DNA of 23,001 bases from a virus, in the IMG/VR virus record IMGVR_UViG_3300046006_001220, positions 1 to 23,001 of that record; one strand, written 5' to 3'. A model generated the notes under the pieces. It was not told the DNA's origin and searched no databases. It saw only the letters and a list, made by a program, of their open reading frames with translations. This document shows, one piece after another, positions 16,366 through 17,329 of this stretch. The translations under genes were made by a program, and so were the position numbers. Within the stretch, counting starts at the first letter, position 1; each line of letters starts with the position of its first letter.

Positions 16366-16736
16366 CCCAACAAGCAATTATTCGAGCTTTACAGAATGGA
16401 TCGCTTACCGCCTATGAGATGGAGAATCTAACGGGCATCCCAAGAACTTCCATCGTGGCTGCTTGCAAGAAGATGTCTCGCAAGAAAGAACTTACTGTTG
16501 AGAAAATCAAAGTGCATCGTGCTTGGGTCTGTAAATACACCTTAGAACCACACATGATTGAGGCTCAAAAAGCCGCCAATGATGAGCCTTATGACAAGCT
16601 AAATCCCTTTGATGTACGCAATGCCAAGGGTATTTTTACCAAATCTGAGTATGCCGTGATGAACAATCAGGCTAGAAGGTTGTTCAATGGCAATCCTAAT
16701 TTCACTAAAGAAATCACAAATAATCAATTTATTTGA
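16362..16736 (+). CDS. Helix-turn-helix regulator-like protein
   Basis: 124 residues. The N-terminus forms a tri-helical HTH: MTQQAIIRALQNGS, LTAYEMENLTG, IPRTSIVAACKKMSRKKELTV (helices at about 3-11, 16-24 and 29-40), followed by a wing-like strand (KIKVHRAWVCKYTL). This resembles the winged-helix domain of small phage regulators that act in replication control or transcription. The C-terminal half is basic and Asn-rich (GNPNFTKEITNNQFI) without recognised motif. It sits between the divergent regulatory gap and a strong promoter 9 bases after its stop, so it could control either one. Confidence 0.7.
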   Translation: MTQQAIIRALQNGSLTAYEMENLTGIPRTSIVAACKKMSRKKELTVEKIKVHRAWVCKYTLEPHMIEAQKAANDEPYDKLNPFDVRNAKGIFTKSEYAVMNNQARRLFNGNPNFTKEITNNQFI

Positions 16737-16745
16737 AAAAACCTC

Positions 16746-16772
16746 TTGACACATGAAAGAACTGTGTATAAT
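16746..16772 (+). promoter_or_regulatory. Strong sigma70-type promoter
   Basis: TTGACA (16746-16751) and TATAAT (16767-16772) are both perfect consensus hexamers, with a TG two bases before the -10-type extension. The spacer is 15 bases, shorter than the usual 17, which may lower or regulate its activity. It lies just after the HTH gene stop, with a start site expected near 16779. No gene follows for about 400 bases, so the first product should be an RNA. Confidence 0.8.
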
Positions 16773-16778
16773 CCAAAT

Positions 16779-16931
16779 CGTCTGAGTGGCATCAGGCGAT
16801 GAACGGAATAGAGAACCCCATAGATTTCTGTGTGGTCTTGCCTGACAACAGGCGAACTTTTGATTCCGTTCAATCGTCCGTTGTTGCTCTCGCCAAGAGC
16901 CAAGACCACAGAGTGATTTATGGGGTTTTTT
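16779..16931 (+). ncRNA. Putative structured small RNA or attenuator ending in a U tract
   Basis: Seen directly: (1) 16779-16798 folds into a 7-bp hairpin with loop GUGGCA. (2) 16814-16840 pairs with 16901-16927 over 27 positions, 25 of them pairs (two G-U), then six U's at 16926-16931, as in an intrinsic terminator. (3) Inside it, 16845-16855 pairs with 16874-16884 (one mismatch) and 16886-16900 forms a GCUCU/AGAGC hairpin, giving a rod with a bubble. (4) A competing helix pairs 16795-16809 with 16863-16878 (15 bp, one bulged A). Helices 2 and 4 interleave, so they form a pseudoknot or exclude each other. The family is not recognised; 6S-like shape and attenuator are both possible. Confidence 0.7.
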
Positions 16932-17179
16932 GCGTTTGGTGGCTATGCAATGCGGTACGTCGGTGGTTGCATTTAGGGATACCCTGTTACACGAGCGAAC
17001 TAAAGCAGGGGCGGTGGGCTAAGGATAGAGCCGAGTGGTTGGGACGCAAGTCTCAGAAGTCTGTCCGATGCGATGCGATGACATGGCTCCGAAGAGGAAG
17101 TTATCCACAAGCAGAGCGAAAACTGGGTTTTGACTCGGTAAGGCTTTGCTTTGCTCAAACATTCACCAAAGAGGAACTT
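16932..17179 (+). other. Gene-free structured stretch upstream of the replication genes
   Basis: No credible gene. Visible: AGGG/CCCT hairpin near 16975-16985; a possible three-way junction closed by 17028-17033 with 17084-17089, holding hairpin 17041-17054 (GGGAC-GCAA-GUCUC, a GNRA-type loop) and UGUC/GACA (17062-17065 with 17080-17083); three perfect CGATG copies at 17066-17080; and a hairpin pairing 17109-17117 with 17143-17151, with AAAAC/GTTTT (17119-17123, 17127-17131) inside. A consensus DnaA box lies at 17101-17109. It may be the 5' leader of the downstream operon or part of an origin. Confidence 0.5.
17101..17109 (+). other. Consensus DnaA-box sequence
   Basis: TTATCCACA is a perfect match to the bacterial DnaA-box consensus. 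It lies in the gene-free stretch just ahead of a replication-protein-like gene and beside a long hairpin. A single 9-mer can arise by chance and no clear second box was seen nearby, so an origin role is only suggested. Confidence 0.35.
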
Positions 17180-17329
17180 ATGAGGATATGTAAGTGTGGA
17201 GGAGTAGTAGGACAACATCAACTGACAAACAACCGAGAGGCTTGGACTTGTCGAAGTTGTGGAAGATATGAGATTGTTGAAGTAAAAAAACCCGAACCTG
17301 ATAGGAGTCAAGAAGATGGAAAAGTTTGA
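17180..17329 (+). CDS. Small zinc-ribbon protein
   Basis: 49 residues from the ATG at 17180, preceded by an AAAGAGGAA ribosome site. It has Cys4-x-Cys6 and Cys24-x2-Cys27 (MRICKCGG and WTCRSCGRY), a short zinc ribbon, then a charged tail (EVKKPEPDRSQEDGK). A much longer frame from 16799 is open upstream, but that part overlaps the structured RNA and reads like non-coding sequence (many Trp, Cys, Arg), so the short start is chosen. Its end overlaps the next gene by 14 bases. Small zinc ribbons next to replication genes may bind DNA or protein partners; function unknown. Confidence 0.7.
   Translation: MRICKCGGVVGQHQLTNNREAWTCRSCGRYEIVEVKKPEPDRSQEDGKV

Follow-up and report, generated by a model that had tools for sequence, protein, structure and literature searches.

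The locus examined here lies in a 23,001-nt stretch of viral DNA (the window), in which a consensus promoter points into a segment of long self-complementarities, and the question it raises is what this promoter expresses. The original prediction placed at this site an unrecognised structured RNA with two interleaved long helices and left three options for its role, namely a terminator/antiterminator switch controlling the replication genes, a pseudoknotted trans-acting RNA, and an RNA polymerase-binding rod similar in outline to 6S RNA. The parts of the element, termed RNA1, and of the conserved element that follows it, termed RNA2, are listed in Table 1.

Table 1. Predicted features of the RNA1-RNA2 locus, in window coordinates
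Feature	Position	Strand	Basis or remark
Promoter: TTGACA 16746-16751, 15-nt spacer, TATAAT 16767-16772	16746..16772	+	sequence; homologue counts
RNA1 (class I), non-coding RNA	16779..16931	+	fold z -8.2; family alignment, covariation
5' hairpin H1, 7 bp, loop GUGGCA	16779..16798	+	covariation, 4/8 pairs changed on both sides
Pseudoknot 5' strand TGAACGGAAT	16800..16809	+	pairs with 16863-16872; homologues
Rod P1, 5' strand	16814..16840	+	pairing and homologue covariation
Inner helix P2, 5' strand	16845..16855	+	4/11 pairs changed on both sides in homologues
Pseudoknot 3' strand ATTCCGTTCA	16863..16872	+	pairs with 16800-16809; homologues
Inner helix P2, 3' strand	16874..16884	+	same covariation as P2 5' strand
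Side hairpin P3, loop CGCCA	16886..16900	+	invariant in alignment A2; compensated change in L443
Rod P1, 3' strand	16901..16927	+	pairing and homologue covariation
U-run, with lower rod a putative intrinsic terminator	16926..16931	+	5-6 T run in 147/155 homologues
RNA2 type A, conserved non-coding partner	16934..17179	+	follows RNA1; type A core 17075-17090
RNA2 repeat X AAGAGGAA	17092..17099	+	comparison across loci
RNA2 repeat Y AAGAGGAA	17169..17176	+	comparison across loci

The rod lies exactly where it had been predicted, with 25 of its 27 positions paired (two as G-U) and mismatches at T16827/T16914 and G16830/G16911. The upper helix (P2) with one mismatch, the 5-bp side hairpin and the six-T end of the rod are likewise present, and H1 is an addition to the elements first described. 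Both promoter hexamers are perfect, as claimed; the spacer is only 15 nt, and the promoter was therefore missed by a standard promoter scan, which takes spacers of 16-18 nt. The interleaved helix comprises 15 bp between 16795-16809 and 16863-16878 with A16873 bulged, and it does share bases with the upper part of the rod, as had been noted: 16874-16878 are common to it and P2, and 16795-16798 are common to it and H1. Because of this double use, only the portion 16800-16809/16863-16872 is free of conflict; it can be extended by 16795-16799 on the 5' arm and by 16874-16878 on the P2 loop side. The nested fold of RNA1 has an energy of -74.7 kcal/mol (z = -8.2) and was equalled by none of 200 shuffles, so that the fold does not reduce to coincidence. 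Judged from its sequence, RNA1 is a small, sharply folded non-coding RNA with start and stop signals of its own, that is, a discrete gene with a putative transcript.

Related virus contigs were gathered via the proteins of neighbouring genes. Many of them carry RNA1 at the same place, and sequence similarity among them often ends at 16939, just past the putative terminator. Family scans anchored on loop motifs detected 86 stretches with the 5' hairpin pattern and at least 120 with the pattern of the P3 region, and the homologue set assembled from IMG/VR contigs comprises 155 distinct RNA1 sequences. A -10 element with at least five of six consensus bases is found in 146 of these at a near-constant distance from H1, a -35 element of the same quality in 84, and the 5-6 T run closes the rod in 147. 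Whole records contain one class I copy each (26/26); most second matches fall on the other strand at the same site, and contig G026 has a partial second match at its end.

Protein coding was considered and rejected. The open reading frames 16799-17329 (+) and 16724-16909 (-) span RNA1 in the window, but RNA1 lengths in the homologues fall in all three frames, which argues against conserved coding across the helices. With no reading frame conserved in homologues, the promoter appears to lead to a non-coding RNA, as had been proposed. The family thus displays the features of an autonomous non-coding RNA: a conserved promoter, a terminator and a covarying structure, without a conserved reading frame.

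The Rfam comparison suggested at the outset (4227 models) gave no match for the window region at the gathering score or at E<=10, and none for 14 related loci; combined with strong covariation in homologues, this bears out the description of an unrecognised structured RNA. RNA1 was not found in the isolate phages and plasmids searched, and a 19-base conserved motif had a single chance match in 84,980 genomes, in surroundings unlike RNA1. A prophage or plasmid origin was rejected on these results. A literature search of limited reach found no description of the family. By comparison of its members, RNA1 is a genuine RNA family that no Rfam model matches, carried by more than 100 uncultured viruses of bacteria.

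Selection on the structure, pseudoknot included, was assessed in 39 aligned homologues. In these, 92.6% of cells are paired, as against at most 48.5% in slid versions, and 22 pairs changed on both sides; shuffles reached 15.6 such pairs and the slid versions 7-12. The counts are 4 for H1, 7 for P1 and 4 for P2. P3 is without variation in this set, and a compensated P3 change, GTTCTCGCCAAGAACC, occurs in L443. In one alignment (A1), H1 stems of 7 bp and 8 bp are set in the wrong columns relative to each other, and covariation was therefore counted on alignments A2 and A3 and sequence by sequence.

Since the pseudoknot varies in length, it was examined singly in 99 sequences. It forms 8-11 contiguous pairs in 98 of them; the strands come in 61 different sequences, G-U pairs number 17 across the set, and the control mixing arms and loops of different phages gave a mean of 4.8 pairs. 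A subset of 17 almost identical RNAs contains five pseudoknot pairs with both sides changed (27 cells, never on one side only) and no such pair in any other helix. The window and its relative L104 show 0 differences at the 129 other positions compared and differ in four compensated pseudoknot pairs. Compensatory changes in related phages, on which the prediction had been staked, were thus found in the pseudoknot, the rod and the 5' hairpin, and the core of the interleaved helix is, on this sequence evidence, a true pseudoknot.

The genes neighbouring RNA1 in the same phages are 5-32% different, so that the pseudoknot is not necessarily fast-evolving. Its variation need not reflect diversifying selection, and the rest of RNA1 is unusually constrained. 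The identity of the pseudoknot strands is free but their pairing is not, as would be expected of a structural strut more than of a guide. An antisense role of the pseudoknot arm was considered and rejected, as third copies of the arm show no excess in flanking DNA at the 7-, 8- or 9-mer level. The H1 loop motif UGGC is complementary to GCCA in the P3 loop, and both motifs are invariant in sets chosen on the other motif (137/137; all complete members); a kissing contact between the two loops, which rests on complementarity and not on covariation, is plausible.

RNA2 follows immediately after the RNA1 U-run in every locus with enough sequence. The RNA2 types found behind RNA1 are A, B/D or C, and the type A core stands behind the class I copy in 18 of 26 whole records. 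The fixed order on the same strand and the conserved junction make a composite read-through RNA possible. Repeats X and Y form an 8-nt direct repeat, with Y directly behind the 3' end of RNA2 type A; the two are identical (8/8) in 62 of 74 loci, and the repeat sequence differs between phages. No complement of X/Y was found nearby in the window, and there is no consistent cis partner. The window RNA2 alone folds no better than shuffles (z -1.0), and the RNA2 structure derives from a comparative fold without controls. Directly after RNA2, at 17180-17329, lies a small zinc-ribbon-like ORF (MRICKCGG...CRSCGR) with relatives in L378, L088 and L472 and no Pfam or PHROG match.

RNA1 in the window is flanked on one side by a 124-aa gene, weakly Ren-like, and on the other by a 119-aa gene whose match to phage replication-initiation proteins is confined to their C-terminal part (PHROG 9474, positions 177-273 of 288), after which comes a Mom gene (Pfam 1e-36). 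A replication-type gene follows RNA1 in 63 of 99 loci; in 7 of the 99, RNA1 is positioned 14-207 bp behind terL (terminase match), and the other next genes across loci include HNH, capsid and genes behind terL.

The site between the scaffold and capsid genes houses RNA1 classes that are unrelated to class I but of the same architecture. Classes II and IV have in common a promoter, a 5' segment, a rod with a U-run, and a pseudoknot of 7-10 bp from the 5' segment into the rod, whose strands differ yet remain complementary; with fewer sequences to compare, the evidence is weaker than for class I. The class I model search did not find class II and III representatives; class IV is set apart from class I by eye only. 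RNA2 type A is not confined to class I loci: it also stands behind first RNAs of class IV, of a class II-like kind and, once, of class V. The placement of unrelated RNAs of one plan before the same RNA2 suggests a shared job done by RNA, not protein. The scaffold-capsid site exists in an empty form of ~220-250 nt and an occupied form of ~590-980 nt, and an HNH gene is present in some cases. The varied next genes, the exchangeable partners and the empty and occupied sites together point to a portable cassette with exchangeable halves. In L408 and its relatives, the -35 hexamer of class IV, TTGACA, is embedded in the hairpin that terminates the upstream gene, a terminator/promoter overlap as expected of an independent unit.

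Among the three options put forward originally, the pseudoknotted trans-acting RNA fits best. We consider it probable, although well short of assured, that RNA1 is an autonomous trans-acting structural RNA of the phage that constitutes half of a portable two-RNA cassette and is held together by the pseudoknot as a strut. RNA1 itself probably works as a free-standing RNA. Comparison reveals an upstream -10 element, a rod ending in a U-run, the 5' hairpin, a three-way junction of P1, P2 and P3, and a pseudoknot between the 5' arm and the P2 loop. In the proposed mechanism, the host RNA polymerase would produce RNA1 as a separate transcript of ~153 nt that ends at a terminator formed by the lower rod. 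Stacking of P2 and the pseudoknot helix would yield ~21 bp, which a fold-back of the three-way junction could bring alongside the 27-bp rod, with a linker of usually 2-6 nt as the bridge; the result would be a compact double rod whose two ends are protected. The pseudoknot would serve as a structural strut, with selection acting on its pairing and not on its sequence, whereas the working surface would consist of the invariant loops GUGGCA, CGCCA and CUUUUG and the upper rod. RNA1 would act in trans, its target being either a protein or the partner RNA2. The RNA1-RNA2 pair may be a moron-like cassette inserted between transcription units, whose role would most likely lie in host takeover, counter-defence or competition and not in controlling the gene that follows. 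More speculatively, and with little confidence, the pair can be viewed as a protein-free mobile cassette with exchangeable halves, drawn from at least three RNA1 classes of the pseudoknotted-terminator plan and at least three RNA2 types. It would have spread among uncultured phages as a competition or counter-defence device in which the pseudoknot, free in sequence but always paired, and the identical RNA2 repeats are phage-specific tags.

Alternatively, RNA1 and RNA2 could be parts of a single composite 5' leader through which attenuation or translational control acts on the next gene. The invariable succession of the two elements on one strand, the conserved junction after the U-run, the position of the RNA2 end shortly ahead of a start codon in the window and the frequent replication gene downstream would all suit such a leader. 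However, the next gene varies from replication genes to HNH, capsid and genes behind terL, RNA1 classes swap before the same RNA2, and no alternative pairing frees the terminator stem: none of the pseudoknot, H1 and P2 occupies AACCCC/GGGGUU, which stays available for pairing, and the lower-rod pairs are kept in homologues. The variety of next genes and a pseudoknot that does not compete with the terminator make a leader function rather unlikely. The original idea of a terminator/antiterminator switch of the replication genes is disfavoured in the same way, since the pseudoknot is compatible with the rod and the cassette is also present behind terL and before unrelated genes.

The pseudoknot strands might instead pair between molecules, so that RNA1 assembles into rings or cages. 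The phi29 pRNA, also a short phage RNA, has complementary single strands that, as in RNA1, keep their pairing while changing in sequence. Intramolecular and intermolecular pairing would leave identical covariation, and the 7 loci with RNA1 behind terL count in favour of such an assembly. In contrast to pRNA, however, RNA1 has no Rfam pRNA match, most copies are away from packaging genes, and closure within one molecule is geometrically feasible; we regard a homo-oligomer as improbable. GOLLD and ROOL, structured phage or prophage RNAs with no known function, have conserved intermolecular kissing (PMC12286853), which also speaks for an oligomer. They resemble RNA1 in being strongly structured phage RNAs whose kissing or pseudoknot contacts are backed by covariation (PMC12286853) and differ from it in their size of ~600-800 nt or more and their frequent location near tRNA islands, as compared with ~153 nt and an own terminator in RNA1. 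The Rfam models of GOLLD and ROOL gave no match in the window or in the 14 related loci.

A DNA-level element, such as a replication origin or a recombination hairpin, is very improbable. A truncated replication-initiation gene adjoins in many loci, and a DnaA-box-like sequence, TTATCCACA, is present inside RNA2 at 17101-17109 of the window; this site is missing in many relatives, and the cassette is also found far from replication genes. Moreover, G-U pairs are kept in the rod, P2 and the hairpin (for example, columns 53/151 are G-U in 36 of 39 sequences), which would be senseless in DNA, and the promoter and U-run are conserved. A 6S-like decoy for RNA polymerase is the least credible proposal, for RNA1 shares with 6S RNA the outline of a small, stable RNA with a long rod and its own promoter, but has no Rfam 6S match and, in place of a large central bubble, two single mismatches in 27 rod positions, an inner three-way junction and a pseudoknot.

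The favoured trans-acting RNA also invites comparison with two other systems. ToxI, the RNA of type III toxin-antitoxin systems, is a pseudoknotted RNA with a terminator, like RNA1, but is built of tandem repeats, whereas RNA1 is a single unit without an Rfam match; ToxI repeats adjoin a ToxN-like gene, and the genes just downstream of RNA1 match replication-initiation and Mom families. The VIPR vrRNAs are ~100-nt phage RNAs with variable parts that are reported to act against competing phages (preprint PMC13142463). They share with RNA1 the variable parts and, in one clade, a pseudoknot (preprint PMC13142463), but contain 9-16 tandem YNNGG repeats, as against a longest run of 1 in RNA1 and 2 in RNA2. 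Phage RNAs without a known function are a known kind; RNA1 is a new family, not described in the papers searched, that has an unusual partner and exchangeable equivalents. This adds a widespread and sharply defined family of phage non-coding RNAs that is absent from Rfam and from the isolate-phage, plasmid and genome collections searched, and its naturally covarying relatives provide ready-made compensatory mutants for studies of structure and function.

Several minor observations concern individual loci. In L114 (527-577), RNA1 breaks off within the first strand of P1 and most of it is lost, but RNA2 type C is kept, which implies that RNA1 is dispensable in this phage or that the assembly is faulty. 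In L469-L472, L490, L492 and L494 versus L476-L478, L491 and L495, the scaffold-capsid site is empty or RNA1-RNA2-occupied. About 150 nt before the capsid gene, L469-L495 contain a conserved leader (GACAACCGCAAGGCC...GGCCCAG...GGACAACCGTTGGCGA) that is possibly another structured RNA, and further conserved unrecognised stretches (GGTATATTGCAGTTGGGGAAAGCGGATGCTGGC...; CAGTCCCCAGCCGTGTTGGTG...) occur upstream of the cassette in L472, L473 and L409. Class III, which has no Rfam match, is a short leader (GAAACACGGCTAGG..GAAAAGAG..CTCCTGCCG..GTTTC) that includes a hairpin of variable but paired sequence; it was observed in L055, L006, L189, L197 and others, behind a homologue of the 124-aa gene and often before a DUF1376 gene. 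The replication-type protein is short in the RNA1-RNA2 loci of classes I and II, with an N-terminal extension of median 7 or 27 aa, and 134-197 aa longer, with DUF1376, in the class III loci L032, L039, L048, L218, L235 and L014.
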